A DNA stretch of 64,000 nucleotides from Maritimibacter sp. DP1N21-5 (GTDB taxonomy: Bacteria; Pseudomonadota; Alphaproteobacteria; Rhodobacterales; Rhodobacteraceae), in contig NZ_JAHUZF010000006.1 of the NCBI RefSeq assembly GCF_019218295.1, forward strand, positions 372,001 through 436,000, read 5' to 3'. Of this stretch, positions 8,971 to 23,837 are shown one piece after another; the stretch's first letter is position 1; each line of letters begins with the position of its first letter. The notes under the pieces were generated by a model that searched no databases, was not told the origin of the DNA, and saw only the letters and a list, made by a program, of their open reading frames with translations. Made by a program: the position numbers and the translations under genes.

Positions 8971-9696
8971 ATGGGCATGGCACAAGACGCCGCAAGAGGC
9001 CTGAAGCGAACCACGACCATACGGATGGAGGGCGCCTTGAATTCCGCATTGATCGTAGATGACCACCCGCTTTTCTGCGACGCGCTGTCCATGACGCTCC
9101 GGGCGACCATCGGGATCGCCAACGTGGAAACCCGTGGCACGCTTGAAGAGGGGCTCGCTTATCTCGCCGAAGCGGGACCGACGGATGTGATCCTGCTTGA
9201 TCTGAACCTGCCGGATGTGAACGGGCTCGACGGGCTGGTGCGGTTGATCAAGGCCTGTCCCGAAACGCCGGTGGTCATCGTGTCCTCCGTGTCCGAACCC
9301 CGCGTCGTGCGCTCGGCCATCCGGATCGGGGCGGCAGGCTTCTTGCCCAAGCATTCGCCGCGCGACACCTTTCAGAAAGCCTTCGACCAGATCACACGGG
9401 GCGAGGTATATGTCCCCGAGGACGCGCTGAACGATGCCGACCCGAACGCGCCGCTCTCGGCCCGCGAGGATGCGCTCGTCCGGATCAGCCACCTGACCCG
9501 CCAGCAGGCGCGCATCCTGCAGTTGATCTGCGAAGGGCAGATGAACAAGCAAATCGCCTATGAGCTGTCGATCGCGGAGACCACCGTCAAGGCCCATGTG
9601 ACCGCCATCATGCGCAAGCTCGGGGTGCAGAGCCGCACGCAGGCAGTGCTGATCGCGCAGGAGGCGAACTTCAATTCGCTCCTGCCCGACAATTGA
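8971..9696 (+). CDS. LuxR-type two-component response regulator
   Basis: NarL/LuxR-family regulator. The receiver domain shows D30/D31, phosphoacceptor D77 (ILLDLNLPDVNG) and K127 (FLPKHS); the C-terminal LuxR helix-turn-helix occupies about 177-235. Counting is from the ATG at 8971, which has an AGGA about 8 bases upstream. A TTG at 9037, with GGAGG just before it, would give a more typical receiver start (MNSALIVDDH) and is a serious alternative. It precedes a FIST gene and a soluble hybrid histidine kinase, its likely partner. Known LuxR-type regulators of methanol and alcohol oxidation (FlhR/MxaB, ErbR/ExaE types) and the quinoprotein genes downstream suggest it controls them. Confidence 0.9.
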   Translation: MGMAQDAARGLKRTTTIRMEGALNSALIVDDHPLFCDALSMTLRATIGIANVETRGTLEEGLAYLAEAGPTDVILLDLNLPDVNGLDGLVRLIKACPETPVVIVSSVSEPRVVRSAIRIGAAGFLPKHSPRDTFQKAFDQITRGEVYVPEDALNDADPNAPLSAREDALVRISHLTRQQARILQLICEGQMNKQIAYELSIAETTVKAHVTAIMRKLGVQSRTQAVLIAQEANFNSLLPDN

Positions 9697-9785: not shown

Positions 9786-10976
9786 ATGTCCGGCATCAAA
9801 CTGACGACGCGCACGCCGCTGGCCCACGCGCCCTTCGTGCGCTCGGCCGAAGCCGAGGCCAACGACCCCGGCGCGATCCGCAAGATCTCCAAGGCGCTGG
9901 GTCCGGGGCCGTTTTCGACCGTGCTCCTGTTCTTCTCCTACACGGCAAGCCGGGCCTCGCTTGCCATGCAGCTTCAGAGCGAGTTTCCCAAGGCCCGCAT
10001 CATGGGCTGTTCCACGGCGGGCGAACTGTCGTCGGCGGGCTATGACGAGGGCAAGATCGTCGCCATGGCCTTTCCCACCGATCACTTCGGGGTGGAGACG
10101 CTGCTCGTCCCGAACCTGAAGGCGCTGGCGCCGCAGGACCTGATGGGGGGGCTCATCCGGGCGCGGCAAAACCTCATGCGCCGGCACCCGACCTTCACCC
10201 ATGAATTCGCGTTCCTGCTGGTCGATGGCCTGTCCACCCGCGAGGATCAACTGACCGCCGCGCTGGCCTCGGGATTGGGGGCGGTGCCGCTCTTCGGGGG
10301 CTCGGCGGGCGACGGTGACCGGTTCGAGGAAACCTTCGTCCTCAACGGACACGAGATGATCCAGAACGCCGCCGTTCTCACCTTCTTTCGCACCGATTGC
10401 CCGGTGAAGGTGTTTTCCTACGACCACTTCCAGGCGACCGAGACGCGCATGGTCGTGACCCGCGCCGACCCCGAACGCCGGGTGGTGAAGGAAATCAACG
10501 CCGAACCCGCCGCGCGTGAATACGCCCGGCTCATCGGGATGGACCCGATGCTGCTCGACGATCACGTCTTTGCGGCGAACCCCGTGGTGGTCCGCGTCGG
10601 CGGCAAGCACCATGTCCGCTCGATCAAGTCCTCGGACGAGAACGGAGAGATGACCTTTTTCGCCGCCATCGACGAGGGTGTTGTCCTGACACTGGCCCGG
10701 CCGGACGACATGGTCGATCACCTGTCGCGGGCGCTCGATGATCTGGCGGCGTCCGCCAACCCGGCGCTGATCCTCGCCTGCGACTGCGTCTTCCGCCGGC
10801 TGGAAGCGGAAATGAGCCAGAAGAAGACTGGCGTCTCCGACCTCCTCTCCCGCCACAACGTGCGCGGGTTCTCGACCTACGGCGAACAGATCGGCGCCAT
10901 CCATGTGAACCAGACCTTCACCGGCGTCGCGATCTATCCGCCCGGTGCCTCGCTTGCCGCCGGGGTCGAGCGATGA
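9786..10976 (+). CDS. FIST domain sensory protein
   Basis: 396-residue protein with the FIST N domain (about 25-225, containing GCSTAGELSSAGY and GGSAGDGDRF) and the FIST C domain (about 235-375). FIST domains are predicted small-ligand sensors, possibly for amino acids or related compounds, and often occur beside histidine kinases. No transmembrane segment or signal peptide is seen. GGAAGGAGGAG lies just upstream of the start. Its stop overlaps the start of the hybrid kinase gene by 4 bases (ATGA), so the two are translationally coupled and it probably supplies input to that kinase. Ligand unknown. Confidence 0.9.
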   Translation: MSGIKLTTRTPLAHAPFVRSAEAEANDPGAIRKISKALGPGPFSTVLLFFSYTASRASLAMQLQSEFPKARIMGCSTAGELSSAGYDEGKIVAMAFPTDHFGVETLLVPNLKALAPQDLMGGLIRARQNLMRRHPTFTHEFAFLLVDGLSTREDQLTAALASGLGAVPLFGGSAGDGDRFEETFVLNGHEMIQNAAVLTFFRTDCPVKVFSYDHFQATETRMVVTRADPERRVVKEINAEPAAREYARLIGMDPMLLDDHVFAANPVVVRVGGKHHVRSIKSSDENGEMTFFAAIDEGVVLTLARPDDMVDHLSRALDDLAASANPALILACDCVFRRLEAEMSQKKTGVSDLLSRHNVRGFSTYGEQIGAIHVNQTFTGVAIYPPGASLAAGVER

Positions 10977-13219
10977 GCGACGGATCCATGCCAGACGACC
11001 ACCGACCCTTGCGCTCGGAGGCGCTGCTCAACCCGACCGACAGCCCGGAGCGGACGCGGGACAAGCTCCTGACCATCGTCGACGTGCTGATGAAGCAGGT
11101 GGAGCAGCGCAACGCCGAACATGGCGCGGCCTATGCCCAGTTCCAGCGCGCCGCACTCCTCGAGGAAGAGGTGCGCCAGCGCACCGTGGACCTCGAGCAC
11201 ACGCTCGACCTGCTGTCGGTGTCGAACGCACGGCTGGCCGAGGCCAACCGCGATCTCGGCACTGCACGCCGCAACCTCGCCAACGCGATCGAAACCATCC
11301 AGGAAGGCTTCGCGCTCTTCGACAAGGACGACTACCTCGTCATGTACAACTCGCGCTTCGCGAGCTTCTTTCCCGATATCCGGGCGCAGCTTCGCGAAGG
11401 CCTGTCTTTCACCGAATACGTCGAGATGGTCAGCCAGTCGGCCTTTCTCGACCTGACCGACAAGGACAATTCCGAGGCCTGGGCTCGGCGGCGGCGGTCG
11501 CGCCACCGCGACCGGCATGTGGTGTTCAACATCCACGTCATGGGCGACCGCTGGATGCAGATTTCCGAGCACCGCACGCCTGACGACGGCACGGTGATCC
11601 TGCAAACGGACGTCACCGACATCGTCATGTCCGAACGCGAGGCGCGGGGCCGGATGCTCGACGATCAGGCGCGCATGATCCGCGCGACGCTCGAACATAT
11701 CACGGTGGGCGTCTGCATCTCCAACCGCGAGAACAAGCTCGCCGGGTTCAACCAGCGTCTCGGCTATCTTCTGGGCCTGTCGATGACCCATCTGCGCATC
11801 GGGCGCGATTTCGAGGCGATGTATCAAAGTTTTGCCGAGGACATGACCGAGATTTCGGGTGTCGAAGGCAGCGACATCCGCGCCTGGGTCAAGGGCGAGG
11901 CGCCGCGTCTGCCGATCCGTTTCGAAGTCACCCAGAGGGACCGCCGCGTGCTGGTCGTCTCGGCCGAGGATCTGCCCGATGGCGGCTTCGTGATGTCGGT
12001 CGCGGACGTCACCGCGGAGCGGCGCACGATGGAGGAAATCACCCGCGCGAACGAGAGCCTCGAGGCGCGGGTGAAACAACGCACGCTGGACCTTGAGGAC
12101 GCGCTGGGCAAGGCCGAACGAGCCAACGCAGCCCGGTCACGTTTCGTGGCGGCGGCAAGCCACGACCTGCTTCAACCCCTGTCGGCGGCCAAGCTCTTCG
12201 TTGCCTCCGCCGAGGATGATGCGGCCAGTGACGGGGCCAAGATCGTGCTTCAGAAGGCCCAGAACGCCCTGGCCAGCGTCGAGAACATCCTCTCGGCGCT
12301 GCTCGACATTTCCAAGCTGGAGGCGGGGCATTCCAACCTGTCGATCCTGCCCATCCCGCTGGCCCCGATGATGCGCCAGCTGCGCGACGAATATGCGCCT
12401 GCGGCAGCTGCCAAGGGGATCGACCTGCGCGTGCTGCCATCGACGCAGGTGGTTGAAAGCGATCCGACCTACCTTCGGCGCATCCTCCAGAACCTCATGT
12501 CCAACGCGATCCGCTATACCGAGACGGGCCGGGTCCTTGTCGGCGCGCGGCGCGAAGCGAACGACCGCACCCGGGTCGAAGTCTGGGACACCGGCCCCGG
12601 CATCCCCGAAGGCGAACAACAGCGGATCTTCCAGGAATTCCACAGGCTCGGTGTCTCGGCCTCGGCCAGTGCCGGGATGGGGCTGGGGCTCGCCATCGTG
12701 GACCGGGCCTGCGCCCAGCTTGGCCACCCGATCCACCTGAATTCGGTCGTCGGGCGCGGCACCTGTTTCGGGATCGACTTGCCGGTGACACGGGGCTGGG
12801 GCGCAGCCACGGCGGGGGTGACGCTCGGGCGCACCGATGTGCCGAGCGGGCCCGAACTCGGGGCGGTCGCGCTCCTGATCGAAAACGACGCCGAGTTGCG
12901 CCGGGCAATGACGTTGCTCCTCGAGAAATGGGGCGTGGATGTGATCGACGTCGAGTCCGGGGAAGAGGCGCTCACCCTCATGGCGGACCTCGATATGGTG
13001 CCTGACGTGATGCTCGTTGATTATCAGTTGGGCGAGGGGATGGACGGGCTTACCACCATTGCGAAGCTGCGTGACGCCTATGGCCGGGTGCCGGTCCGGC
13101 TCGTCACTGCCAACCGCTCGCCCGAGGTCGAGGAAGCCGCGCGAAAGGCCGGGGTCGGCGTGCTCTACAAGCCGATCGCGCCACGCGACCTCGAACGGTT
13201 CGTTTCGCGTCCCGACTGA
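10973..13219 (+). CDS. Soluble PAS hybrid sensor histidine kinase/response regulator
   Basis: 748 residues without transmembrane segments. A coiled coil (about 40-100) leads into a PAS domain (about 100-220), a second PAS-like region (235-350) and another coiled coil. HisKA follows with H397 (ASHDLLQP). HATPase_c has N511, DTGPG at 539-543 and GMGLGLA at 568-574. A C-terminal receiver has phosphoacceptor D683 (LVDYQLGEG) and K733. It is translationally coupled to the FIST gene (4-base overlap) and lies downstream of the LuxR regulator, so phosphotransfer to that regulator is the simplest model. The NosR-like gene follows 112 bases later. Confidence 0.92.
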   Translation: MSDGSMPDDHRPLRSEALLNPTDSPERTRDKLLTIVDVLMKQVEQRNAEHGAAYAQFQRAALLEEEVRQRTVDLEHTLDLLSVSNARLAEANRDLGTARRNLANAIETIQEGFALFDKDDYLVMYNSRFASFFPDIRAQLREGLSFTEYVEMVSQSAFLDLTDKDNSEAWARRRRSRHRDRHVVFNIHVMGDRWMQISEHRTPDDGTVILQTDVTDIVMSEREARGRMLDDQARMIRATLEHITVGVCISNRENKLAGFNQRLGYLLGLSMTHLRIGRDFEAMYQSFAEDMTEISGVEGSDIRAWVKGEAPRLPIRFEVTQRDRRVLVVSAEDLPDGGFVMSVADVTAERRTMEEITRANESLEARVKQRTLDLEDALGKAERANAARSRFVAAASHDLLQPLSAAKLFVASAEDDAASDGAKIVLQKAQNALASVENILSALLDISKLEAGHSNLSILPIPLAPMMRQLRDEYAPAAAAKGIDLRVLPSTQVVESDPTYLRRILQNLMSNAIRYTETGRVLVGARREANDRTRVEVWDTGPGIPEGEQQRIFQEFHRLGVSASASAGMGLGLAIVDRACAQLGHPIHLNSVVGRGTCFGIDLPVTRGWGAATAGVTLGRTDVPSGPELGAVALLIENDAELRRAMTLLLEKWGVDVIDVESGEEALTLMADLDMVPDVMLVDYQLGEGMDGLTTIAKLRDAYGRVPVRLVTANRSPEVEEAARKAGVGVLYKPIAPRDLERFVSRPD

Positions 13220-13284
13220 CGCCCCTCACCGCTGCGCGAGCTCGCACGTCACGTCGGAAGCGCCAAGGTCGAAGAGGGCGCTGG

Positions 13285-13300
13285 ACTTTGGTCGTATGGG
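13285..13300 (+). promoter_or_regulatory. Putative regulator-binding motif upstream of nosR-like gene
   Basis: ACTTTGGTCGTATGGG, ending 31 bases before the NosR-like start. The same core (ACTTTGGTC or its complement GACCAAAGT, with a nearby ATGG) recurs at 17901-17972, 20693, 21367, 21390 and 21920, all upstream of genes of the quinoprotein module. Assignment as an operator rests on this recurrence. Confidence 0.5.
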
Positions 13301-13331
13301 CGGGGCCGGGGCGCGGGAGTAGCGTCGCCCC

Positions 13332-15407
13332 ATGTGGAGGATCATCGTCGGTATCCTGTTTTGCGCGGCGCTGGCCGCCTTGCCCGTCCGCGCGGCCGAC
13401 TGGCCGCCGGCGGATCGCGCGACCATCGAAGCGCTGATCGTGCCGCCCTATGCGCTGGGCGAGCCGATGGAGGAACCCGGCGTCTATCACCTCCTGAATT
13501 CCGGCGGCGCCGAGATTGGCTATGCCTTCGAAACCGGACCACTCGCGCCCTTGCCTGGGTTCTCGGGCAAGCCCATCGACATGCTGGTGCTCCTGCAACT
13601 CGACGGAACGATCATCGACGTGCGCTTGATGACCCAGAACGAACCGGTTTTTGTCTCGGGACTGGGCGAGGCGCCGTTCCGCGAGTTTCTCGAACAATAC
13701 CCGGGGCTTTCGATCACCCAGCCGCTGGTCGTGGGTGTGCCCTACGGTGGTGGCGGGTCCGGGTCCGACCTGACCTATCTGGACGGGGTGACCAAGGCGA
13801 CGGCCTCGGTCCGCATCGCGCATGAATCCATTCTCGCAGCTGCGCTTCAGGTGGCGCGCGACAAGATGGGCGGCATGGCGGGGGGCACTCCCGCGCGCCC
13901 GGACATGACCGTGGAAGAGAGCCTGACGTGGCAGGACCTCGTCGACGAGGGCATCGCGCGCCGGCTGACCGTGACCAATGCCGAGGTCGATGCGGCCTTC
14001 GCGGGCACGATCTGGGCCGACGACGATCCGGAGGCGCAGGCGGACCCGGAGGGTCTGTTTCTCGACCTCTGGCTTGTCGACATCGGCGCGCCTTCGGTCC
14101 AGAAGGCGGTTTTCGAGCCAGCCACCGTAGAGGAACTCGCCCGCCTCCGCGCCGTCAGCCCGGATGACGAACCCCTCCTTCTGCTGGACGCTGGCCGTCA
14201 CGGGCTCGTCTCCGAGGATTTCGTGCGCAACACAGCGCCCGACCGGCTGTCGGCGGATCAAGGCGGCTTCCCCGTGGCGCTGCGCGATGCCGACATGTTT
14301 CCGGGCTTCCTCCCCGGCGTGCCCGAGCATGAGACCGCGATGATCCTGCGCGCGGACCGGCGGCTGGGCTTCGACCCCATCACTGACTGGACCCTGAAGG
14401 TGCAGGCGGTGCGCGAACACGGCATGTTCCAGCCCGAGATCGGCGATACCCACTTCACGCTGGATTACGTCGCGCCCGCGCGGTTCTACGTGGTGCCCGA
14501 GGTGGTCAAGCCGCGTCCCGCGTGGCTCGAGGCCATCGTGAACCGCCAGACCGACCTCGCGATCCTGTCGGTGTTCCTCGTCGGTTTGCTCGTCGCCGTG
14601 GGACCGGGGATGCACTGGCTCGCCGCGCGCCGCCATTACACCACAATACGGCTGAGTATCCTCGCCGTGGTCGTGGGTTTCATCGGCTACTGGGGGCAGG
14701 GGCAGCTGTCCATCGTCACCGTGCTCGCCGTCCTGCGTGCGACGGTGGGCGACGGGTCCTTTGCCGTGCTGCTCTACGATCCCTTCTCGCTTCTCGTCTG
14801 GGCGGTCGCGATCCTTGGCTTCGTACTCTGGGGCAGGGGGCTTTTCTGCGGCTGGCTGTGTCCCTTCGGCGCGATGCAGGAATTCGCGCATCATCTGGGG
14901 CGGCTCCTGCGCCTGCCGCAGATCGAGGCCGGTCCCCGGCTCGACGCCTGGCTCAAGCGGTTCAAATACCTGGCGCTCGCCCTGTTGATCGCGGTGGCCT
15001 TCCTCATTCCAGACCGGGCCGAGAAAGCGGCAGAGATCGAGCCCTTCAAGACCGCGATCACCGTCGGGTTCCAGCGTGAATGGTTCTACGCCGCCTATGC
15101 GCTGGGTTGGCTCGTGCTCGGCACAATCTTCTTCAAGGGCTTCTGTCGTTACGTCTGTCCGCTTGGGGCCTTCATGGCGATCGGGGGCCTGCTGCGGGGG
15201 CGCAAGTGGATCGAACGCCGCGCGGAATGCGGCGCACCCTGCCAGCTCTGCCGCGTGAAATGCCAATACGGGGCCATCAAGAAGACCGGCGAGATCCAGT
15301 ATGACGAATGTTTCCAATGTCTCGACTGTGTGACCATCTTCGACGACCCGAAGAAATGCGTGCCGCTGATCGTGGAGACAAGACGTGCCCGGAGGGAGGC
15401 CGCATGA
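13332..15407 (+). CDS. NosR-like membrane flavo-iron-sulfur protein
   Basis: 691 residues. A signal peptide (1-21) precedes a periplasmic FMN-binding domain with the flavinylation-type motif DGVTKATAS at 151-159, where T157 would carry FMN. A long periplasmic part reaches about 395. Membrane helices (about 400-610) follow, with two polyferredoxin motifs CGWLCP (C506, C510) and CRYVCP (C605, C609). The cytoplasmic C-terminus has CGAPCQLCRVKC and CFQCLDC clusters typical of two [4Fe-4S] centres. Architecture and length match NosR (about 720 residues), which sends electrons to nitrous oxide reductase. However, no nosZDFYL is present. Instead the gene overlaps apbE (ATGA) and sits in a PQQ dehydrogenase region, so its electron partner here is probably different. 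It may equally be NirI-like. Confidence 0.85.
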   Translation: MWRIIVGILFCAALAALPVRAADWPPADRATIEALIVPPYALGEPMEEPGVYHLLNSGGAEIGYAFETGPLAPLPGFSGKPIDMLVLLQLDGTIIDVRLMTQNEPVFVSGLGEAPFREFLEQYPGLSITQPLVVGVPYGGGGSGSDLTYLDGVTKATASVRIAHESILAAALQVARDKMGGMAGGTPARPDMTVEESLTWQDLVDEGIARRLTVTNAEVDAAFAGTIWADDDPEAQADPEGLFLDLWLVDIGAPSVQKAVFEPATVEELARLRAVSPDDEPLLLLDAGRHGLVSEDFVRNTAPDRLSADQGGFPVALRDADMFPGFLPGVPEHETAMILRADRRLGFDPITDWTLKVQAVREHGMFQPEIGDTHFTLDYVAPARFYVVPEVVKPRPAWLEAIVNRQTDLAILSVFLVGLLVAVGPGMHWLAARRHYTTIRLSILAVVVGFIGYWGQGQLSIVTVLAVLRATVGDGSFAVLLYDPFSLLVWAVAILGFVLWGRGLFCGWLCPFGAMQEFAHHLGRLLRLPQIEAGPRLDAWLKRFKYLALALLIAVAFLIPDRAEKAAEIEPFKTAITVGFQREWFYAAYALGWLVLGTIFFKGFCRYVCPLGAFMAIGGLLRGRKWIERRAECGAPCQLCRVKCQYGAIKKTGEIQYDECFQCLDCVTIFDDPKKCVPLIVETRRARREAA

Positions 15408-16270
15408 TCACCCGTCGCCGGCTTCTCGCGCTGTCTGCCGCCGCCCTCGTGCCGGTTCCCGCCAAGGCATCTACCGAGTGGCGGGGGCGGGCCTTCGGGT
15501 CCGACGTGTCGCTGTCGCTCACGGGCCAGCGCCAAGAGGTGGACCGGGACCTCGGCAACCTCCTTGCAAGGATGCGCGAGATCGAAGCGACGTTCACGCT
15601 CTATGACCCCGCAGGACCCATGGCGTGGCTCAATCGGAAGGGGCAGGGGGCGCTCTCGCCCGATCTGGAACGTATACTTACGACTTGTGCCACGGTCCAT
15701 TCAGCCACAGACGGTCACTTCGACCCGACGATCCAGAGCCTCTGGGTGGCACTGGCGGAAAACCGAGAACCTGATCAATCGCTCGTGGACTTCTCTCGCG
15801 TCGATGTCGGGGGCGGCGCGGTTCGGTTGTCGCCGGGACAGGCGCTGTCTTTCAACGGCGTCGCGCAGGGCTATGCGGCGCAGGAGTTGCGCGGAATGCT
15901 GGCGGCGCGCGGCTACAGAACCGCAAGGGTCGACATGGGCGAAACCGCCGCGCTCGGCGGGCCGTTCCGGCTCGGAGTCGAAGATCCGGGCGCCGGGCGG
16001 ATCGCCGAGATCACGCTGGCCAATGCCTGTGCCGCGACCTCGTCCCCCGCCGCCATGACGATCGGCGGGCGCTCTCACATCCTGCACCCCCAAGGCGGCC
16101 AGCCGCTTTGGTCCTCCGTCACCGTGATCGGGCCGGATGCGACCCTGGCCGACGCGGCGTCCACCGCCTTCTGCCTGATGCGGGCACCCGACATGGAAAA
16201 GGCCGCGCAATCGCTCGGCCTTTCCAGGGTGCTGTTGGTCGACCGCGAGGGGAACCTCGCGACGCTTTAG
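15404..16270 (+). CDS. apbE: FAD:protein FMN transferase ApbE
   Basis: 288-residue periplasmic flavin transferase that covalently attaches FMN from FAD to a Thr/Ser of FMN-binding domains. The N-terminus (MITRRRLLALSAAALVPVPA) is a twin-arginine-like signal peptide. ApbE signatures follow: HFDPTIQSLW, then FNGVAQGYAAQ, then VDMGETAALGG, and a C-terminal conserved TLADAASTAF. The start is set by the 4-base ATGA overlap with the NosR-like stop, so the pair is translationally coupled. Its obvious client is T157 of that protein. It converges on the binding-protein gene on the other strand, the two stop codons overlapping at 16267-16270. Confidence 0.93.
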   Translation: MITRRRLLALSAAALVPVPAKASTEWRGRAFGSDVSLSLTGQRQEVDRDLGNLLARMREIEATFTLYDPAGPMAWLNRKGQGALSPDLERILTTCATVHSATDGHFDPTIQSLWVALAENREPDQSLVDFSRVDVGGGAVRLSPGQALSFNGVAQGYAAQELRGMLAARGYRTARVDMGETAALGGPFRLGVEDPGAGRIAEITLANACAATSSPAAMTIGGRSHILHPQGGQPLWSSVTVIGPDATLADAASTAFCLMRAPDMEKAAQSLGLSRVLLVDREGNLATL

Positions 16271-17160
16271 CGTTCGGGCGACAGGAACGTCAGCCCATGC
16301 GCGGCAAAGATCGCTTCGATCCGCCCGTCAGCAAGCGCCTTCTCGATGGCGTAGTCCACCGCATAGCCAAGGTCGCGGTGCTGGAAGTTCACCGCCACCC
16401 CCACCGTCCAGTCCGAACGCACGAGCCCCGGATAGGGCGGCACATGCAGTCCGAGCCCCTCGGTCATCCCGGCTTCAAGGACCGCGCGGGGCCCCATGGC
16501 TGCCATGACCTCGCCGCGCACCAGGGTTTCCATCGCGGCCTCGGTGGTCGGGAAGCGCTGCACCCCCGCCACCGGCGCGCCGCGCCCGAGCGACGAGAGG
16601 TAGAAGTCCGAGATCGAATCGTTCTCGACCGCGACCGTGTCGTATCGGAAATAGGCCGGCGTCGGCCCGCCGTCCGGGTAATCGGCCAGCGAATAGGCTA
16701 TGGCCAGCTCTTCGGCGGCATATTGCCCGGTGAAGGCCGCCTGTTCGATCCGGCAGGTCAGGTCGCTGTCATAGGGCACATGCATCATCACGTCGGACAC
16801 GCGCCCCCCCACGACGGCGCCCTTCCAGACGTAGTTGAGCAGATCCGCGTCAAGGTTCTCGCCCGCCTGCACGAGGCGAAAGCGCGGCTCCACGCCGATG
16901 TCCTCGGCGATGATCCGGGCGATCTCGACGTCGATCCCCACGACCTTGCCTTCCTCTTCATAGGACCAGGGCGCGAAATCCTCGTAGAGGGCGAATTCCA
17001 TCCAGCCTTCGTCCACGATGGTGTCGAACTCGCGCCCGATGTTCTGCGCGAAGGTGTTCTGGGGTTTGGGCTGCGGGACGTGATCCTCGCAACGCGCAAA
17101 GGCCGGCCCTGCAATCGCAAGACCGGCCAGAAGGCTCGCAAGAGCGCCTATGCGTGTCAT
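16267..17160 (-). CDS. Quinoprotein-associated periplasmic substrate-binding protein (XoxJ/PedG-like)
   Basis: 297 residues with a cleavable signal peptide (ALASLLAGLAIAGPAFA, about 6-22) and a family 3 solute-binding fold: WMEFALYEDFAPWSYEEEGK then VGIDVEIARIIAEDIGV. Insertions such as GGRVSDVMMHVPYD are characteristic of the MoxJ/XoxJ/PedG branch. Members are encoded beside PQQ alcohol dehydrogenases and are thought to help activate or mature the enzyme rather than import a solute. No ABC permease or ATPase gene is nearby. It is the second gene of a two-gene minus-strand operon, 10 bases after the cytochrome c gene, and its stop overlaps that of apbE. Confidence 0.85.
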   Translation of the reverse strand: MTRIGALASLLAGLAIAGPAFARCEDHVPQPKPQNTFAQNIGREFDTIVDEGWMEFALYEDFAPWSYEEEGKVVGIDVEIARIIAEDIGVEPRFRLVQAGENLDADLLNYVWKGAVVGGRVSDVMMHVPYDSDLTCRIEQAAFTGQYAAEELAIAYSLADYPDGGPTPAYFRYDTVAVENDSISDFYLSSLGRGAPVAGVQRFPTTEAAMETLVRGEVMAAMGPRAVLEAGMTEGLGLHVPPYPGLVRSDWTVGVAVNFQHRDLGYAVDYAIEKALADGRIEAIFAAHGLTFLSPER

Positions 17161-17170
17161 GGCGTCTCCG

Positions 17171-17848
17171 TCAGTGTGCCGCGGACAGTCCGACGGTCAG
17201 GATGTCGCCCGCCGCCTTCCAGCTTGCCGGGTCGTCGTTGATCGTGCGCGCGGCCTCGAAAGCGACCGAATCCGCGACCGGGGCACCGGAGCCGGTCTCG
17301 ACCTGGTCGGCGATCCCCTGCAATTCCGACGCGAGCGACGCCGGATCCGCGACGGTGCCCGACATGAGCTCGTCCCGGATGGCAGCAAGCCGGTCGGCAT
17401 GGTCGTCGAGCTCGCCGTCATCGGGCCGCGTTTCGATATAGGTGCGGATGGCCCAGGCGGCCTTCTGGCCCAGAAGCTCGCCGAAAGCGGGCATCTTGGT
17501 GGTCCCGTTCTGGGTCATGCCGTGCCGGAACCGTTCCACATACCATTCATCGCCATATTCCGCGGCTTCGAGATAGCGCAGATCGGGGGCAAGTCCCCCC
17601 GACACGACGCCCAGTCCATGGCAGCGTGCGCAGTTCTGGTTATAGCCCGACGCCCCGATTTCGACCGCTTTCATCCAGACGTCCTCGCCTGCCGCCTCTG
17701 CACGATAAGGGTTCTCGATCAGCCACTCTTCGCCCACCTCGGGAAGCGCATCGGTGTTGACGGGCTGGGGCGTCACGTCACCGTGGCCATAGGCAGCGCC
17801 GGCAAGGGCGAGCGTGGCGACAGCGGCGAAAATATTGGTCCTGTTCAT
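17171..17848 (-). CDS. Periplasmic cytochrome c (PedF/XoxG-like)
   Basis: 225 residues with a signal peptide (1-20). One haem-binding site CARCH is at 73-77 within GYNQNCARCHGL, and the likely axial methionine is M119 (TTKMPAFGELLG). The segment from GYNQNC to AIRTYIETRPD matches the PedF/c-550 cytochromes that accept electrons from PQQ ethanol dehydrogenases. An extra ~85-residue C-terminal tail without haem motifs is longer than in typical PedF. It heads the operon with the XoxJ/PedG-like gene and diverges from the ABC binding-protein gene across a region with a perfect inverted repeat. Predicted role: electron acceptor of the quinoprotein at 22071. Confidence 0.87.
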   Translation of the reverse strand: MNRTNIFAAVATLALAGAAYGHGDVTPQPVNTDALPEVGEEWLIENPYRAEAAGEDVWMKAVEIGASGYNQNCARCHGLGVVSGGLAPDLRYLEAAEYGDEWYVERFRHGMTQNGTTKMPAFGELLGQKAAWAIRTYIETRPDDGELDDHADRLAAIRDELMSGTVADPASLASELQGIADQVETGSGAPVADSVAFEAARTINDDPASWKAAGDILTVGLSAAH

Positions 17849-17900
17849 GGTGTCCTCCGCAACATTTCGGCCTAGCTAGCCCCGCTTGGTTCGCTCGCGC

Positions 17901-17972
17901 CATTAGACCTTGGTGCAGTTCGCGCCCTGTCGCCGTCTCATTTCCGTGAGCGTGAGACCAAGGTCTAATGGA
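17901..17972. promoter_or_regulatory. 15-bp perfect inverted repeat in the divergent cytochrome/binding-protein promoter
   Basis: CCATTAGACCTTGGT at 17901-17915 is the exact reverse complement of ACCAAGGTCTAATGG at 17958-17972, with centres 57 bases apart. One arm faces each divergent gene: 52 bases from the cytochrome start and 45 bases from the binding-protein start. The arms belong to the ACCAA(A/G)G motif family that recurs through this module, so a shared regulator is likely. Confidence 0.6.
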
Positions 17973-18017
17973 ACGCTCCGGAAACTCCCGCCTAGCTTCC
18001 CTTCAGGAGGAGTTTTC

Positions 18018-19196
18018 ATGAAACAGACCCGGCGCATCATCCATGCGGCGTTCCTTGCCGCCACGGTCCCGCTTGCAGCTTCGGCCGCCGACCTCGTGGT
18101 TCCCGTCGCCTATCTTCGGCTCGAAGAACCGCCCCGGGCGGTGCTCTCGAACCTCGATGCCGTGCCCGAGGATCTTGGCCTCGCCGGGGCTGATCTGGGC
18201 CGTGCGGACAACGCGACGACCGGCAGCTTCATGGGCCACGACTACCAGCTCACCACCGTGTCGCTGCCCCCGGAGGGCGATGTGGTCGCGGCCGCGCGCG
18301 AGCTTGCCGCCGGACACCGCATCATCCTCGCCGATATGCATGCCGAGCGGCTCCTTGCCGTGGCCGACCTGCCGGAACTGGAAGGCGCGCTCATCTTCAA
18401 CGTCTCGAGCGAAGCACCGCGCCTGCGCAGCGAAGACTGCCGCGCGAATGTGTTCCACACCGCGACCGAGGCATCGATGCGGGCGGATGCGCTCATGCAG
18501 GTGCTTCTGGCCAAACGCTGGACGACCCTCGCTCTGATCGAGGGCGAAACCGACGACGACCGCGCACTGGCCGAGACTTACCGCGCCTCGGCCCGTAAGT
18601 TCGGCCTCAAGATCGTGTCGGAAGCCGAGTGGAGCGAAGCCGGCGACCTGCGCCGCTTTGCCTCCCGCGAAGTGCCGCTTCTGACGCAGGGCTTCAAGGA
18701 CCACGATGCCGTTCTCGTCGCCGACGCCGGCGATGATTTCGCCCGCTACATCGAACACAACACCTTCGAACCGCGCCCGGTTGCGGGGGCCACAGGGCTC
18801 ATGCCGCTTGCCTGGGCGCCGGTCGTGGAACAGTGGGGTGCGGCCCAGCTTCAGAACCGGTTCGAGGCGCTTGCAGGCCGTGATATGGCGCCCCGAGATT
18901 ATGCCGCCTGGGCGGCGATGCGTGTGGTGGGCGAGGCGGTGACGCGCACGAACAGCGCCGATCCGGGCGCGCTGCGCGACTATATCCTTGCCGACGACTT
19001 CGAGCTTGCCGGGTTTCAGGGTCGTCCTCTGTCCTTCCGCCAATGGAACGGCCAGATGCGCCAGCCGATCCCGGTCGTGAATGCCCGGGCGCTGGTCGAG
19101 AGCGCGCCGCTTGACGGCTTCGAGCATCAATTCAATCCACTGGACAGCCTCGGGATGGACCGTCCCGAAAGCACCTGCACAGCCTTCGGAGACTGA
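18018..19196 (+). CDS. ABC-type substrate-binding protein, PQQ alcohol dehydrogenase-associated family
   Basis: 392 residues starting at ATG 18018, preceded by AGGAGG (18005-18010). A signal peptide (1-22) is followed by a branched-chain amino-acid-type periplasmic binding fold with two lobes; DLVVPVAYLRLEEPPRA opens the mature protein. The sequence fits the family of binding proteins encoded with PQQ-dependent alcohol oxidation genes. In those systems an ATPase and permease usually follow, but none is in this window. The next gene, a YVTN propeller, starts 1 base after the stop and is clearly co-transcribed. A role in sensing, maturation or product handling is possible; the ligand is unknown. 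Confidence 0.85.
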   Translation: MKQTRRIIHAAFLAATVPLAASAADLVVPVAYLRLEEPPRAVLSNLDAVPEDLGLAGADLGRADNATTGSFMGHDYQLTTVSLPPEGDVVAAARELAAGHRIILADMHAERLLAVADLPELEGALIFNVSSEAPRLRSEDCRANVFHTATEASMRADALMQVLLAKRWTTLALIEGETDDDRALAETYRASARKFGLKIVSEAEWSEAGDLRRFASREVPLLTQGFKDHDAVLVADAGDDFARYIEHNTFEPRPVAGATGLMPLAWAPVVEQWGAAQLQNRFEALAGRDMAPRDYAAWAAMRVVGEAVTRTNSADPGALRDYILADDFELAGFQGRPLSFRQWNGQMRQPIPVVNARALVESAPLDGFEHQFNPLDSLGMDRPESTCTAFGD

Positions 19197-19197
19197 C

Positions 19198-20151
19198 ATG
19201 CTGAAACCTGCCCTTCTTGCCGCCCTCGTCGCGACCCCGGCTGCCGCCTCGGAAATCTGGGTGACCAACGAAAAGGACGACACGATCAGCGTGATCGACG
19301 TCGAAACGCTCGAGGTCACGCGCACGATCCCTACCGGCGAACGCCCGCGCGGTATCACCTTCAACTCGGATCACAGCCGGGTCTACATCTGCGCCTCCGA
19401 TTCGAACGCGGTTCAGGTCATGGACCCGGAAACGGGCGAAATCCTGCACGACCTGCCGTCCGGCGCGGACCCTGAGCAATTCGTTCTTTCGCCCGACGAC
19501 CGCTATCTCTGGATCGCGAACGAAGACGACGCGGTGACCACCGTGGTCGATGTCGAAACCCGCGAGGTCGTGGCCCAGATCAACGTGGGCATCGAGCCCG
19601 AAGGTATGGCCGTCTCGCCCGACGGCAAGATCGTGATCACGACCTCCGAAACCACCAACATGGCGCATTGGATCGACACCCAGAGCCATCAGATTTTCGC
19701 CAACACGCTGGTCGACAGCCGCCCGCGCCATGCGGAGTTCGTGAACGAGGGCAGCGAGCTTTGGGTGAGTTCCGAGATCGGCGGGACGATCACCGTCTTC
19801 ACCACTGGCGACCAGAGCGAGAAGGCCAAGATCCGTTTCGAGATCGACGGCATCCATCAGGACCTCGTGCAGCCGGTCGGGTTCGAGTTCACACCCGATC
19901 ACAAGACCGCCTTCGTGGCCCTGGGGCCCTCGAACCACGTCGCCGTGGTCAACGCGGAGACCTTCGAGGTCGAGGATTACATCCTCGTCGGCCGCCGCGT
20001 CTGGCACATGGCTTTTTCCCCCGACCACAGTCAGCTTTTCACCACCAACGGCGTCTCGGGCGACGTGACGGTGATCGACGTGGCTTCCCGCCGGCCGGAA
20101 AAGACCGTTCAGGTCGGCCGTTTTCCCTGGGGTGCGGCGACCCGGCCCTGA
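19198..20151 (+). CDS. YVTN-repeat beta-propeller protein, PQQ-catabolism-associated
   Basis: 317 residues with a short signal peptide (MLKPALLAALVATPAAA). The mature protein is a seven-bladed propeller of YVTN type: repeated units such as IWVTNEKDDTISVIDVETLE, VVDVETREVVAQINVGIEPE and AVVNAETFEVEDYILVGRR. It starts 1 base after the binding-protein stop. This propeller family is recurrently encoded with quinoprotein alcohol dehydrogenases. It carries no evident cofactor ligands and may act as a scaffold or chaperone in the periplasm. The family call is secure; the molecular role is not established. Confidence 0.87.
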   Translation: MLKPALLAALVATPAAASEIWVTNEKDDTISVIDVETLEVTRTIPTGERPRGITFNSDHSRVYICASDSNAVQVMDPETGEILHDLPSGADPEQFVLSPDDRYLWIANEDDAVTTVVDVETREVVAQINVGIEPEGMAVSPDGKIVITTSETTNMAHWIDTQSHQIFANTLVDSRPRHAEFVNEGSELWVSSEIGGTITVFTTGDQSEKAKIRFEIDGIHQDLVQPVGFEFTPDHKTAFVALGPSNHVAVVNAETFEVEDYILVGRRVWHMAFSPDHSQLFTTNGVSGDVTVIDVASRRPEKTVQVGRFPWGAATRP

Positions 20152-20192
20152 CAGGCCACCCCGCCTGCACCTCTCAACAGAAGGACCTTTCC

Positions 20193-20645
20193 ATGCGTAA
20201 ATTCCTCATCGCGGCTTCCGCGACCCTCGCCCTCACGACTTTTCCTGCCTTCGCGGACGATGATGACGACGACGCCGGATTCGGTATGGCGGGGCTCCTC
20301 TCTGCCACCAACTCCGAGGACCTGCCGCCGATCCTGCTGTCAGCCGGACAGCCCCTTGCCGAGGCGCCGCTCATGCTCAAGTCCGGCACCCATTACGAGA
20401 TCGAGATCGAGGCAGACGGATCGCAGGAACTCGCGCTCGCGGGCGCGGCGTTCTTTCGGGCCATCTGGATCAACGAGCTGGTTATCGAAGGCATCGAGAT
20501 TCGCCCTCTCGGCGTCGACAGCTTCGAGTTCGACGAGGCCGGCACGATGGAGATGAGCTTCATCGCGATCAAGCCGGGCAGCTATACGCTCAGCGTGCCG
20601 CAGGCACGCGGCGACCTTCAGACGCTCCAGATCACCATCGAATAG
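20193..20645 (+). CDS. Small secreted acidic protein of unknown function
   Basis: 150 residues: signal peptide (MRKFLIAASATLALTTFPAFA) followed directly by a run of six aspartates, then a short segment and a predicted beta-rich domain (about 50-150). It lacks the His/Cys/Met set of a cupredoxin, so I do not assign copper binding despite a broadly cupredoxin-like size. The start has AGAAGGA upstream. It lies 41 bases after the propeller and is probably the last gene of that operon. The acidic N-terminus of the mature protein could bind cations such as calcium or lanthanides; that is speculation from composition. Confidence 0.75.
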   Translation: MRKFLIAASATLALTTFPAFADDDDDDAGFGMAGLLSATNSEDLPPILLSAGQPLAEAPLMLKSGTHYEIEIEADGSQELALAGAAFFRAIWINELVIEGIEIRPLGVDSFEFDEAGTMEMSFIAIKPGSYTLSVPQARGDLQTLQITIE

Positions 20646-20659
20646 AACCGACGCGACCC

Positions 20660-20710
20660 GGTCCAATGGGGCCGGGTCGTAGAAAAACCGGCACTTTGGT
20701 CCAATGGGGC
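20660..20710 (+). promoter_or_regulatory. Direct repeats of the module motif upstream of the Sel1 gene
   Basis: GGTCCAATGGGGC occurs at 20660-20672 and again at 20698-20710; the second copy is preceded by ACTTT, giving ACTTTGGTCCAATGGGGC (20693-20710). The second copy ends 41 bases before the Sel1 start, a spacing close to that seen at the other promoters of the module. Copies are 38 bases apart, centre to centre. Confidence 0.5.
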
Positions 20711-20751
20711 GGGGGCAGGGCGCATGGCAAAATATGTGCGGAGGAAACATC

Positions 20752-21336
20752 ATGACCCGCACCCTTGCCGCGCTTGCGCTCGCCGCCTGCACCTTGCTGT
20801 TCGGCGGCATCGTCCTTGCCGAAGACCTCGCCATGGAGATGGGCGAGGAGACCCAAGTGACCGAAGAGGGCACGCTCAACCCCCATGAAATGTCGATGGC
20901 ACGGGTCATGGAGAACATCCGCGACGGACAATCGGACATGGTGCTTTGCTCGACCGGGTATCTCGTTACCAAGTCCGGGCGACACGGGCTCGCCCGGGAG
21001 CTCTTCGAGCGCTGCGCCGAAGACGGCTACACTGGGGCGATGACCTGGATGAGCCAGCTTGACGACCGTGGGCTCGGCGGACCCCAGGACCTCGAAGCCG
21101 CGACCGAGTGGAACCGCCGCGCCGCCGAGGCGGGGGACCCTGTGGGCCAGTTCAACCGGGGTCTCGACCTTCTGCGGGGATGGGGCGTGGCGCAGGACGA
21201 AGCCGCCGGACGCGCGCTGATCGACGAAGCCGCAAACGCCGGACTCCCGGTCGCGGAGCGCATGCGCAGCGCCGGGTACGACCTGGACGAGGTAACGCCG
21301 GACGCCGACGAATGGCGTTATCAGAAGATGTTCTGA
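20752..21336 (+). CDS. Secreted Sel1-repeat-like protein
   Basis: 194 residues from ATG 20752, with GGAGGAA just upstream. A signal peptide (1-23) is followed by Sel1/TPR-like helical repeats (about 75-160): GLARELFERCAEDGYTGAM, then LEAATEWNRRAAEAGDPVGQ, then AAGRALIDEAANAGLPVAE. Such repeats usually mediate protein contacts. It has its own promoter region with two copies of the module motif and lies between the propeller operon and a cytochrome c gene. No enzymatic motif is seen. It is possibly a periplasmic assembly factor for the quinoprotein chain. Confidence 0.75.
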   Translation: MTRTLAALALAACTLLFGGIVLAEDLAMEMGEETQVTEEGTLNPHEMSMARVMENIRDGQSDMVLCSTGYLVTKSGRHGLARELFERCAEDGYTGAMTWMSQLDDRGLGGPQDLEAATEWNRRAAEAGDPVGQFNRGLDLLRGWGVAQDEAAGRALIDEAANAGLPVAERMRSAGYDLDEVTPDADEWRYQKMF

Positions 21337-21366
21337 CGCGTGGCCGGCGACATAGTCTCCATGCGC

Positions 21367-21400
21367 GACCAAAGTCGTAGGAATTCCGAGACCAAAGTCG
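21367..21400 (+). promoter_or_regulatory. Tandem module motif upstream of cytochrome c gene
   Basis: ACCAAAGTCG occurs twice as a direct repeat (21368-21377 and 21391-21400), 23 bases apart, each preceded by G. The first, CGACCAAAGTC, is the exact complement of the core upstream of the NosR-like gene at 13285. The pair lies 84-117 bases before the cytochrome start. Confidence 0.5.
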
Positions 21401-21484
21401 CCCCCGGCGCTTGACCCACGTCAAACGCCCGGCGCCGCCGACAGGTCATCCTTGGGACAACACATCAGTTCCAAGGAGATACCC

Positions 21485-21874
21485 ATGTTTCGCAGCTTCA
21501 TCCTCGCCCTGTCTATCGCAACCGGGGCCCTCGCCTCGCCGGCCCTCGCAGGCGAATACGACACCATCAAGGCCGAGGCCGGTCAGGCGCTTTTTGACAA
21601 GGAATGCCACCGCTGCCATTCGGTCGACGCGGACCGGGCGAGTTACGGCCCGCTTCTGACCGGCGTCGTGGGGCGCGAGGCCGGGACGTTCCCCGACTAC
21701 CCCTATTCCGAGGCGCTTACCCAGGCGCATTTCGTCTGGACGCCCGGCGCACTCAAGGCGTGGATGGAAGACAATGACGCGCTTCTGCCGGGCACCAAGA
21801 TGCGTCATGTGGGGATCGACGATCCGACCGTGCAGGATTTCATCGTGACCTACCTGGAGACCTTGGGCGGCTAG
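21485..21874 (+). CDS. Small class I cytochrome c
   Basis: 129 residues from ATG 21485, with AAGGAG upstream (CCAAGGAGATACCC). A signal peptide (1-22) precedes a single-haem class I fold: CHRCH at 41-45, and the axial-methionine loop PGTKM with M106. Size and PGTKM motif resemble cytochrome c2/c550. It is encoded directly upstream of the PQQ dehydrogenase on the same strand, and is a plausible second carrier between the quinoprotein, the PedF-like cytochrome and a terminal oxidase. It has its own motif-bearing upstream region, so it may be transcribed separately. Confidence 0.9.
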
Positions 21875-21919
21875 GCGTTCCCCGCCGTCCCGAGACGCAC
21901 CCCATTCGGCGCCGTATAG

Positions 21920-21967
21920 GACCAAAGGACGATGCGTTTTCGGGCGGGTCGTAGCGCCAATACGACC
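21920..21967. promoter_or_regulatory. Module motif copies upstream of the PQQ dehydrogenase
   Basis: GGACCAAAGGACGATG begins at 21919, and CCAATACGACC (21957-21967) is the complement of GGTCGTATTGG, a one-base-longer version of the GGTCnnATGG form seen elsewhere. They lie 104-152 bases before the dehydrogenase start. These copies are more degenerate than those at 13285, 17958 and 20698. Confidence 0.4.
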
Positions 21968-22070
21968 TTCTGCCAATTTGCCGCACCCTCCGGCCGGACG
22001 ATCATATGCGTGGCTCGACCTGCGGCGGCACCCTGACCGTCGCCCGAAAAGCATCCATGGGAGGATACAC

Positions 22071-23837
22071 ATGAACAGGTTCGTCAAAGCCGCCGTCGCG
22101 GCGACAATGGCCTTCGCCTTTGCCGCCCCGGCCATTGCGAATGTCACCGAAGAAGACCTCGCCAACGACGCGAACACACCGGAAAACATCCTGACCAACG
22201 GCATGGGGCGTGATCTACAGCGCTACTCGCCAATGGACACGCTGAACAAGGAAAACATCCAGAATCTCGTTCCCGCCTGGGCCTTCTCGCTCGGCGGAGA
22301 AAAGCAGCGCGGGCAGGAAACACAGCCGCTCGTCCACGACGGGATGATGTATGTCACCGGCTCCTATTCGCGGCTTTACGCGATCGACCTCGAGACCGGG
22401 AAGGAAGTCTGGCAGTTCGACGCGCGTCTGCCAGAGGGCATCCTGCCCTGCTGCGATGTGGTCAACCGTGGTGCGGCGATCTATGGCGACAAGATCTATT
22501 TCGGCACGCTCGATGCCCGCATCGTGGCGCTGGACCTCAAGACCGGCGACACGGTCTGGAACAAGAAGATCGCCGAATACAAGGAGGGCTACAGCTACAC
22601 CGCCGCACCGCTCATCGTGGACGGGCTCGTCATCACCGGCAACTCCGGCGGTGAATTCGGGATCGTCGGCGAAGTGCAGGCGCGCGATGCCGAGACCGGC
22701 GACATCGTCTGGACCCGCCCGGTGATCGAAGGTCACATGGGCACGCTCAACGGCGAAGAATCGACCATGACCGGCACGCTCAACGCGACCTGGCCGGGAG
22801 ATATGTGGAAGACCGGCGGCGGCGCGACCTGGCTCGGCGGCTCCTATGACGCGGACACCGACACGCTGGTCTTCGGCACCGGCAACCCGGCGCCCTGGAA
22901 CTCGCACCTGCGCAACGCGGGCACGCCGACCGACGGCAATGCGGGCGACAACCTCTATGCCGCCTCGCGTCTGGGCATCGATCCGGCGACCGGCGAAATC
23001 AAGTGGCACTTCCAGACCACGCCGCGCGAAGGCTGGGACTTCGACGGCGTGAACGAGGTCGTTTCCTTTGTCGATACCGAAGGCAACATGCGCTATGCGA
23101 CTGCCGACCGGAACGGGTTCTTCTACGTCCTTAACCGCGAAGACGGTGCCTTTGTCAGCGCGACGCCCTTCGTGTCGGACATCACCTGGGCCGAGGGCAT
23201 CGACGAGACCGGGCGCCCGATCTACAACGAAGCCAACCGTCCGGGCAACCCGCTCGACGCCGACAAGGGCGAGATGGTCTTCGCCGTGCCCTCGTTCCTT
23301 GGCGGCAAGAACTGGATGCCGATGGCGTTCAGCCAGAAGACCGGGATGTTCTACGTGCCCTCCAACGAATGGGGCATGGACATCTGGAACGAGCCGATCT
23401 CCTACAAGAAGGGCGCGGCTTACCTGGGTGCGGGCTTCACGATCAAGCCGATCTTCGAAGACCACATCGGGTCCCTGAAGGCGATCCAGCCCGAGACTGG
23501 CGAAATCAAATGGGAATACAAGAACGATGCGCCGCTCTGGGGCGGGGTCATGACCACGGCCGGGGGCCTCGTGTTCTTCGGCACGCCCGAGGGTGAATTC
23601 CTGGCGCTCGACGACGAGACCGGCGAAGTCCTGTGGTCCTTCCAGACCGGGTCGGGCATCGTCGGCCAGCCCGTTACCTACGAGATCGACGGCGAGCAGT
23701 ATGTCACTGTGGTCTCCGGCTGGGGCGGCGCTGTGCCGCTCTGGGGTGGCGAGGTCGCGAAGAAGGTGAACTACCTCAACCAGGGTGGCACCGTCTGGAC
23801 CTTCAAACTGCCGCGGCAGTTGGCATCCGCCCAATAA
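22071..23837 (+). CDS. PQQ-dependent alcohol dehydrogenase, lanthanide-type (ExaF/PedH-like)
   Basis: 588 residues from ATG 22071, with GGGAGGA before it. A signal peptide (1-23) is followed by the eight-bladed quinoprotein propeller. PQQ-site features are visible: vicinal disulfide C127-C128, metal ligands E195 (GGEFG) and N272 ([10 protein letters not shown]), and catalytic D323 in WDFDG. D325, two residues later, is the Asp that in XoxF and ExaF/PedH enzymes coordinates a lanthanide; calcium enzymes have Ala or Ser there. Segments such as [16 protein letters not shown] and [20 protein letters not shown] resemble ethanol-type (ExaF/PedH) rather than methanol-type enzymes. It probably oxidises primary alcohols or aldehydes in the periplasm, passing electrons to the cytochromes c encoded nearby. 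A strong terminator follows. No PQQ synthesis genes are in the window. Confidence 0.93.

Follow-up and report, generated by a model that had tools for sequence, protein, structure and literature searches.

A conserved promoter dyad links a quinoprotein module and a NosR-like operon in Rhodobacterales and is the probable site of an AgmR/ErdR-type regulator

Genes of the module

A 64,000-nucleotide stretch of the Maritimibacter sp. DP1N21-5 genome (contig NZ_JAHUZF010000006.1, positions 372,001 to 436,000; G000:C6:372001-436000 in our numbering), here called the window, encodes a pyrroloquinoline quinone (PQQ)-dependent quinoprotein module whose operons are preceded by copies of one short inverted repeat. 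The repeat is conserved in the promoters of related bacteria and is probably the binding site of a response regulator encoded in the same module. The genome is 3.86 Mb long and is given as 99.8% complete. Its closest named relatives belong to Maritimibacter: a REDSEA metagenome-assembled genome (L055; 88% for the binding protein and 97% for the regulator) and M. alkaliphilus HTCC2654 (L021; 73%).

The module extends from the response regulator gene at 8971 to the end of a PQQ dehydrogenase gene at 23837, and its genes, on the forward strand unless marked otherwise, were named by NCBIfam and Pfam profile matches. The proposed motif binder (8971..9696) is a LuxR/NarL-type, ErdR/AgmR-like regulator with Response_reg and GerE domains that scores 173.5 bits with the ErdR model NF041830 (cut-off 390); its start codon is uncertain (241 amino acids, compared with mostly 219 to 240 in homologues). 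Next come a NosP-like FIST sensor protein (9786..10976; FIST and FIST_C; NF041558, 386.4 bits, short of the cut-off of 450) and a NahK/ErcS'-like hybrid histidine kinase with PAS, HisKA, HATPase and receiver domains (10973..13219; NCBIfam and Pfam). A NosR-like membrane 4Fe-4S protein (13332..15407; Fer4_5; NF046105) is encoded with an overlapping ApbE-like gene (15404..16270), named from a reading of its protein sequence, which had no NCBIfam match (Pfam was not run on it); an ApbE-like gene accompanies the NosR-like gene in 32 of 37 loci.

On the reverse strand lie a periplasmic binding protein gene, PedG/XoxJ-like by position (16267..17160, −; weak amino-acid-binding-protein matches), and the gene for cytochrome c-550 PedF (17171..17848, −; TIGR04494, 194 bits, cut-off 122). 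Divergent from these are genes for a PQQ_ABC_bind (PedA1-like) substrate-binding protein, hereafter the binding protein (18018..19196; TIGR03863, 458.9 bits, cut-off 413.6), a PedA2-like beta-propeller associated with PQQ-dependent catabolism (19198..20151; TIGR03866, 511.7 bits, cut-off 287.3), and a 150-amino-acid protein that recurs in the module and had no NCBIfam or Pfam match (hyp150; 20193..20645). They are followed by genes for a Sel1-repeat protein (20752..21336; Pfam Sel1, 23.5 bits, under the cut-off of 30.7), a class I cytochrome c (21485..21874; Pfam Cytochrom_C), and a PQQ-dependent dehydrogenase of the methanol/ethanol family (22071..23837; TIGR03075, 764 bits, cut-off 480). The dehydrogenase protein reads WDFDGVNE at 23034-23057; the aspartate two residues past the catalytic one is a feature that we take to be a mark of lanthanide-dependent enzymes.

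Motif sites in the window

A preliminary description of this DNA had reported a core, its complement and a trailing nnATGG upstream of several of these genes. The observation is confirmed, and every position named is present in the sequence, but the core is better defined as a 10-bp dyad, GACYWWRGTC, with arms of 4 bp around 2 bp and followed by nnAT; the two forms that had been given, ACTTTGGTC and GACCAAAGT, are its two strands. Exact copies of ACYWWGGTCNNATGG occur in the window at 13285(+), 17900-17914(−), 17957(+) and 20693(+), and all four precede module genes, with start codons 32 to 51 bp away; the corresponding distances for a pair of sites before the cytochrome c gene are 85 and 108 bp.

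The NosR-like promoter contains the site GACTTTGGTCGTATGG (13284..13299, +), an exact motif and a match to the matrix described below, with a −10-like TAGCGT 36 bp from the first dyad base (13320..13325, +; promoter alignment). A weak tandem partner, GCCAAGGTC (13261..13274, +), lies 23 bp 5' of the main site and scores 8.7, under the threshold of 9.46. The footprint CTGGAC-TTGGTCGTAT is kept in this promoter in 7/7 aligned Maritimibacter and Celeribacter sequences. Between pedF and the binding-protein gene, the preliminary description had seen a 15-bp inverted repeat at 17901 and 17958; both sites are there, but its arms are two complete outward-facing sites, one per divergent gene. The pedF site is CACCAAGGTCTAATGG (17900..17915, −), again an exact motif and a matrix match, with TAGCTA as a −10-like hexamer 37 bp from the dyad (17873..17878, −; sequence inspection). 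The site of the binding-protein operon, GACCAAGGTCTAATGG (17956..17971, +), has the top matrix score in the window (22.2) and a −10-like TAGCTT at the fixed offset, 37 bp from the dyad (17993..17998, +).

The Sel1 gene has an exact site, CACTTTGGTCCAATGG (20692..20707, +), with a −10-like CAAAAT at 20728-20733, and two half copies seen in the sequence and the alignment (20660..20682, +): GGTCCAATGG at 20660 and GGTCGTAG at 20675, the latter 23 bp before the main site. Matrix and alignment identify two dyads in front of the cytochrome c gene, GACCAAAGTC (21367..21399, +), at 21367 and 21390. Copies spaced 23 bp apart are found at 13262/13285, 20675/20698 (GGTC positions) and 21367/21390. The PQQ dehydrogenase sites that had been placed at 21920 and 21957 exist, but they are degenerate and sub-threshold: GACCAAAGGA (21920..21929, +; score 7.1) is kept in Maritimibacter and Celeribacter, and the one in promoter position is GACCTTCTGCCAAT (21964..21977, +), beside 21957, with GATCAT (22000-22005) 36 bp on. 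Orthologous PQQ dehydrogenase promoters have GACCATTGTGCAAT with a GATaaT-like element. Across the seven aligned Maritimibacter and Celeribacter promoters, the NosR, Sel1, cytochrome and PQQ dehydrogenase sites appear as footprints, some of them degenerate.

Frequency of the motif

The four exact copies of ACYWWGGTCNNATGG in the window compare with a mean of 0.01 in 100 dinucleotide shuffles, and four of the five exact copies in the genome are in the module. With one mismatch allowed, 28 genome matches were found, compared with 8 for the reversed pattern, and lone degenerate copies therefore mean little. Outside the module, the surroundings of one exact match and three full-dyad matches were inspected. 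The exact match was rejected as a regulon site; it sits at the start of an open reading frame (ORF) read as FolE2/MptA without a family search. Two of the three full-dyad matches are inside ORFs and were likewise set aside. The third (L075; G000:C2:88243), which has one mismatch, lies about 460 bp 5' of another LuxR-type regulator gene.

The bare 9-mer gives a more modest enrichment: at one mismatch or fewer it occurs 14 times in the window, with 6.7 expected and 1 of 100 shuffles reaching 14, and some of these copies are inside ORFs (for example, at 5119, 16105 and 24211). Such a roughly twofold excess, with degenerate copies in coding sequence, is what might be expected if the motif were a chance or compositional repeat of a GC-rich genome with no regulatory meaning. 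Against that idea stand the near-absence of the 15-mer from the dinucleotide shuffles, the promoter conservation outside the training set and the fixed −10 spacing reported below, and we give it practically no credence.

Conservation in relatives

When named genomes were scanned with the binding protein, 54 loci were obtained, and tblastn placed the other module genes in them. Eight near-duplicate loci (L034, L046, L055, L059, L060, L062, L068 and L071) were left out of the discovery, matrix and geometry counts, as were loci with low identity or unplaced starts; counts for pqq and for paralogous modules were not deduplicated. An unsupervised expectation-maximization search, run on the regions upstream of 45 binding-protein genes with near-duplicates removed, recovered GACCAAGGTCCAAT, with the consensus TnCGACCAWRGTCCAAT. 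The log-likelihood ratio reached 401-404 with the real set, for which 160 seeds were tried and the best six run for 60 iterations; three shuffled sets, given a shallower search of at most 100 seeds and 6 iterations, reached 53-70. Both the window and L070 are among the 45 regions; L070, a locus of the paralogous type, alone scored below threshold. The resulting matrix was trimmed to 14 of its 18 columns, and the threshold of 9.46 is the 99th percentile of 2000 coding 250-mers.

Promoters that were not in the training set matched the matrix in 30/30 cases for the NosR-like gene (Fisher p 9e-33 versus controls), 29/36 for the PQQ dehydrogenase (p 1e-25), 9/20 for cytochrome c (p 9e-9) and 7/31 for Sel1, the last in close relatives only (p 2e-5). 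The controls were upstream regions of operon-internal genes, of which 1 of 143 matched (SBP2, 1/42; kinase, 0/20; beta-propeller, 0/47; hyp150, 0/34). The matrix thus does not match unrelated genes equally often, and orthologous promoters keep the motif, so that neither outcome named in the preliminary description as refuting the link was seen; its interpretation of the motif as a shared regulon site that includes the NosR-like gene is supported. PedF promoters matched in 42/42 cases, but they provide no independent test, since pedF and the binding-protein gene (ABCb) flank a single intergenic region that is also part of the training set.

A search of 80 family genomes for the perfect 18-bp dyad proved too strict, with 8 occurrences spread over 7 genomes, among them three in the module, one that preceded another NosR-like gene and two in coding sequence of an amino-acid binding protein; the matrix was used instead. 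In family f44, whose gene order is Pseudomonas-like, the eight pedF promoters contain nothing closer than a weak variant, ACCAAAGCAGnAT.

Promoter geometry

To the position of the site itself the comparison adds a fixed promoter geometry, which the preliminary description did not contain. The set comprised 108 gene-facing, above-threshold sites with at least 50 bp left, from binding-protein, pedF, NosR and PQQ dehydrogenase promoters. TAnnnT occurs at an offset of 36-37 from the first dyad base in 34/108 promoters (offsets 35-38, 43/108), and offsets 14-34 together hold 2 occurrences. The signal comes mainly from the binding-protein (21/28) and NosR (8/11) sets, while PQQ dehydrogenase promoters peak at offset 38 (5/28). 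Among the window hexamers TAGCTT, TAGCTA, TAGCGT, CAAAAT and GATCAT, only TAGCTT and TAGCGT fit TAnnnT. No −35 consensus is visible. Because the −10 lies at offset 36-37, the dyad centre would be near −44, assuming a start 7 bp past the −10. A dyad near −44 with a −10 and no −35 is the arrangement of a class-II activator.

This spacing also bears on whether the dyads could work at the RNA level, as terminators, attenuators or processing sites of leader transcripts, an idea to which inverted repeats in intergenic DNA naturally give rise. The arms, however, are 4 bp around 2 bp, the sites stand at a fixed spacing before −10-like hexamers, and the outward pair at 17900/17957 would precede both transcripts; judged from this arrangement, a role in RNA is very improbable.

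Alternatively, the same regulator might use the sites as operators for repression or dual control. In P. aeruginosa, deletion of erdR raised most of the tested targets and lowered PA3235 (PMC9927353), and for this reason we regard activation as likely rather than certain. The position near −44 before a −10, with no conserved −35, is nevertheless that of an activator. In P. fluorescens the ACTU motif, a 17-bp imperfect inverted repeat at −52 to −36, is required for activation of acs by CrbR (PMC5715377), and AgmR is described as an activator of the ped cluster (PMC12997753). We consider a repressor or dual-control role quite unlikely.

The pqq operon

A search for PqqB, PqqC and PqqE added the pqq operon of relatives as a candidate target beyond those of the preliminary description. 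A site was found upstream at 12/17 PqqB loci (8/13 without near-duplicates). Seven of the 13 non-duplicate loci (L030, L031, L043, L044, L052, L072 and L103) have a separate pqq-facing site with scores of 14.2-17.1; in these, pqq is divergent from the NosR-like operon, and each side has its own dyad. The upstream site was not above threshold in L028, L033 (8.6) and L150, and the pqq operons of two paralogous modules had none (3.4 and 4.1).

In the window genome neither pqqB nor pqqE reached the cut-off, despite the PQQ dehydrogenase module. In a sample of 120 family genomes, one per genus, pqqE exceeded the cut-off in 27, including 23 of the 35 with the binding protein; the other 12 of the 35, the window genome among them, had no full pqqE over cut-off, although one of them, G119, has a fragment where a contig ends. 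These 12 also include G097, G042, G117 and G104, whose regulators are the closest. The NosR-like promoter may be a remnant of an ancestral divergent pqq/NosR promoter.

The candidate regulator

The LuxR-type regulator at 8971 had been proposed as the binder of the motif. It remains a candidate, with binding unproven, but several observations favor it. It is the best of 18 matches to the ErdR model in the genome (about 173 bits), and the next protein scores 82.6 bits. In the 120-genome sample the binding protein was over cut-off in 35 genomes, the regulator (E 1e-40 or better) in 45 and both in 32 (p 2e-15), an association weaker than the p value suggests because regulator and module are often linked, the genomes are related and the counts mix module types. 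Regulators of at least 51% identity were present in 26 of the 35 module genomes and in 12 genomes without the module (p 4e-10).

Paralogous modules provide a contrast. In 13 such modules, seven of them showing a paralogous trio with a regulator 40-44% identical, the dyad site is essentially absent (binding protein, 1/13; PQQ dehydrogenase, 0/12; cytochrome, 1/7). Eleven aligned type-1 regulators, from the 30 loci with one, share the helix ETTVKAHVTAIMRKLGV. In L160, from another alphaproteobacterial family, the regulator is 56% identical, and the NosR-like gene, the ApbE-like gene and the sites are kept. Before the binding-protein gene of the paralogous modules L073, L074, L140, L070 and L144 there are sequences such as CCAATACTTTTGGCGCATTGCG, which are perhaps a variant site of these modules' own regulator.

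If the motif were instead bound by another regulator, for example another NarL-type protein, with the local trio controlling something else, the 18 ErdR-model matches in the genome and the paralogous trios of relatives would offer candidates. In P. aeruginosa NosP and NahK feed a biofilm pathway (PMC12997753), which fits such a division of labor. The gap between about 173 and 82.6 bits, the co-occurrence of regulator and module and the near-absence of the site from the 13 paralogous modules all argue the other way, and we judge binding by another protein to be unlikely.

Several results weigh against our assignment of the motif to the regulator at 8971 and its operons. That protein is not ErdR itself, since it reaches 173 bits where the ErdR cut-off is 390, and 13 of the 45 regulator-bearing genomes have no module. 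Paralogous regulators differ only modestly in the recognition helix, and the L160 regulator has two changes in this helix yet its sites are kept. The regulator's own promoter is weakly enriched (4/24). The −10 signal of pedF is weak across relatives, the cytochrome c promoter of the window has no −10 at the fixed offset, and the window's own PQQ dehydrogenase promoter is degenerate, scoring 7.1 and thus under the threshold. Finally, 2/6 same-family pedF loci from a phylum search were sub-threshold (L125, 0.9; L135, 9.4), as were 17/24 pedF promoters outside the family (7/24 above).

Comparison with known systems

The match to the ACTU motif of CrbR/ErdR is also new relative to the preliminary description. 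CrbR is another name of ErdR (PMC12997753). ACTU sequences listed in the P. fluorescens study include TACTACCAAAGTCTAAT and CGCTACCATGGTCGAAT (PMC5715377). When our matrix was compared with the 23 ACTU sequences of its Table 4, 19/23 had a random p of 0.01 or less, 15/23 of 0.001 or less, and 23/23 the same orientation; of the four that missed the 0.01 level, one appears in the table with 16 letters. The ACTU sites of four genes shown to be CrbR regulated (acs, the actP operon, 5625 and 0110) have p values of 0.0009 or less. The two systems, that of P. fluorescens and other Gammaproteobacteria and the one described here, are alike in core, flanks, orientation, predicted position and response-regulator family, but they differ in their genes: acetate genes (acs and actP) there and quinoprotein genes here. 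The best acs match of the window genome has no upstream site (L161 scores at most 7.6 throughout, under the threshold of 9.46). The ACTU-type site, described for acetate use, may be an older motif of the family, one that goes with the regulator and not with the pathway.

AgmR/PedR1 activates the Pseudomonas ped cluster and pqq operon and has NosP and NahK neighbors (PMC12997753). Like the AgmR/PedR1/ErbR system, the present one encodes its regulator alongside NosP- and NahK-like genes, close to those for PedF, PedA1A2 and a PQQ dehydrogenase. In relatives, sites also lie before the pqq operon. The Rhodobacterales regulon differs in adding the NosR-like/ApbE-like operon, Sel1, and a cytochrome c gene that has an FNR-type box. 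No NosR-like match was found in two Pseudomonas-like loci of 39 kb each, identified by gene order, whose regulators are 42% identical to that of the window. In six ped loci from other proteobacterial families, with regulators 41-44% identical, NosP- and kinase-like genes are present in 5/6 within the stretch read. With orthology judged by gene order and identity, the ACTU match, the ErdR-model match and the NosP/NahK neighbors therefore lead us to a best reading in which the system would be a Rhodobacterales counterpart of the AgmR/PedR1 quinoprotein regulon that uses an ACTU-type site and includes the NosR-like/ApbE-like operon. In the literature searched, which included few subscription papers, no title or abstract concerned this site in Rhodobacterales or a NosR-like regulon member, and no published binding site for the AgmR-type branch was found.

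The window's NosR-like protein shares a 4Fe-4S membrane architecture and an ApbE-like partner gene with the NosR of nitrous oxide respiration. It differs in reaching 444 of the required 1000 bits and in having no linkage to nosZ, and by model score it is not that NosR. The contig contains a NosZ-like gene, which scores 455 bits (cut-off 625) and is some 0.89 Mb distant; the NosR homologue beside it shares 29% identity with the one in the window, and no site scoring at least 11 was found in 19 kb of this locus.

Proposed regulation of the module

The motif is probably the site at which the 8971-9696 regulator acts as a class-II activator of the module operons. From the computed motif, its conservation and geometry, the co-occurrence and the CrbR-motif match, we infer binding, a phosphorelay, activation and an inducing signal, which might be an alcohol, nitric oxide (NO)/haem or redox sensed via the FIST protein. 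A regulator of the AgmR/PedR1/ErdR family, encoded with the NosP-like FIST sensor and the NahK/ErcS'-like kinase, would, once phosphorylated, bind the dyad TnCGACCAWRGTCCAAT as a dimer; the site would take the place of a −35 element, some 44 bp 5' of the transcription start. The bound dimer would recruit RNA polymerase to the −10 that lies 36-37 bp from the first dyad base. The NosR-like/ApbE-like operon, the divergent pedF and PedA1A2-like operons, the Sel1 gene and the cytochrome c gene would be switched on jointly, and the PQQ dehydrogenase would be activated through its degenerate sites.

These findings outline a concrete proposed regulon through which marine Rhodobacterales would control quinoprotein alcohol oxidation, supply the AgmR-type branch with a candidate binding site and tie a NosR-like iron-sulfur protein to PQQ metabolism through shared promoters and, in relatives, a divergent pqq operon. 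We speculate, with considerable doubt, that a chain from a haem/NO-responsive NosP-like FIST sensor through the NahK-like kinase to the AgmR-type regulator directly couples NO or redox state to the quinoprotein alcohol-oxidation regulon; that the NosR-like/ApbE-like flavoprotein is a dedicated electron or maturation partner of the quinoprotein and not part of denitrification; and that cells of the Maritimibacter-type clade, in which the regulon persists without pqq synthesis genes, run it on scavenged PQQ.

Other features

The cytochrome c promoter also contains a perfect FNR/Anr-type box, TTGACCCACGTCAA (21411..21424, no strand assigned), of the form TTGAN6TCAA, which we take to be an FNR site. 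The box is present in 13/22 orthologous cytochrome c promoters (a set that was not deduplicated) and in 0/293 other upstream regions, which suggests FNR/Anr-type oxygen control of this gene as a second input.

A second PQQ_ABC_bind/beta-propeller locus of the genome (L101; G000:C3:23500-43400) has ABC transporter, pentapeptide and cytochrome-like ORFs, as judged by reading. A matrix scan found no promoter motif there; the sole match scoring at least 10 overlaps the end of an unrelated ORF. In another genome a perfect dyad lies 5' of a NosR-like gene 55% identical to that of the window (L096:1501-1518); no binding protein or regulator was found in that genome at the thresholds used. A further perfect dyad, at L099:1501-1518, lies 5' of a TorD-like ORF amid apparent formate dehydrogenase accessory genes, and this TorD-like gene is a possible further member of the regulon.

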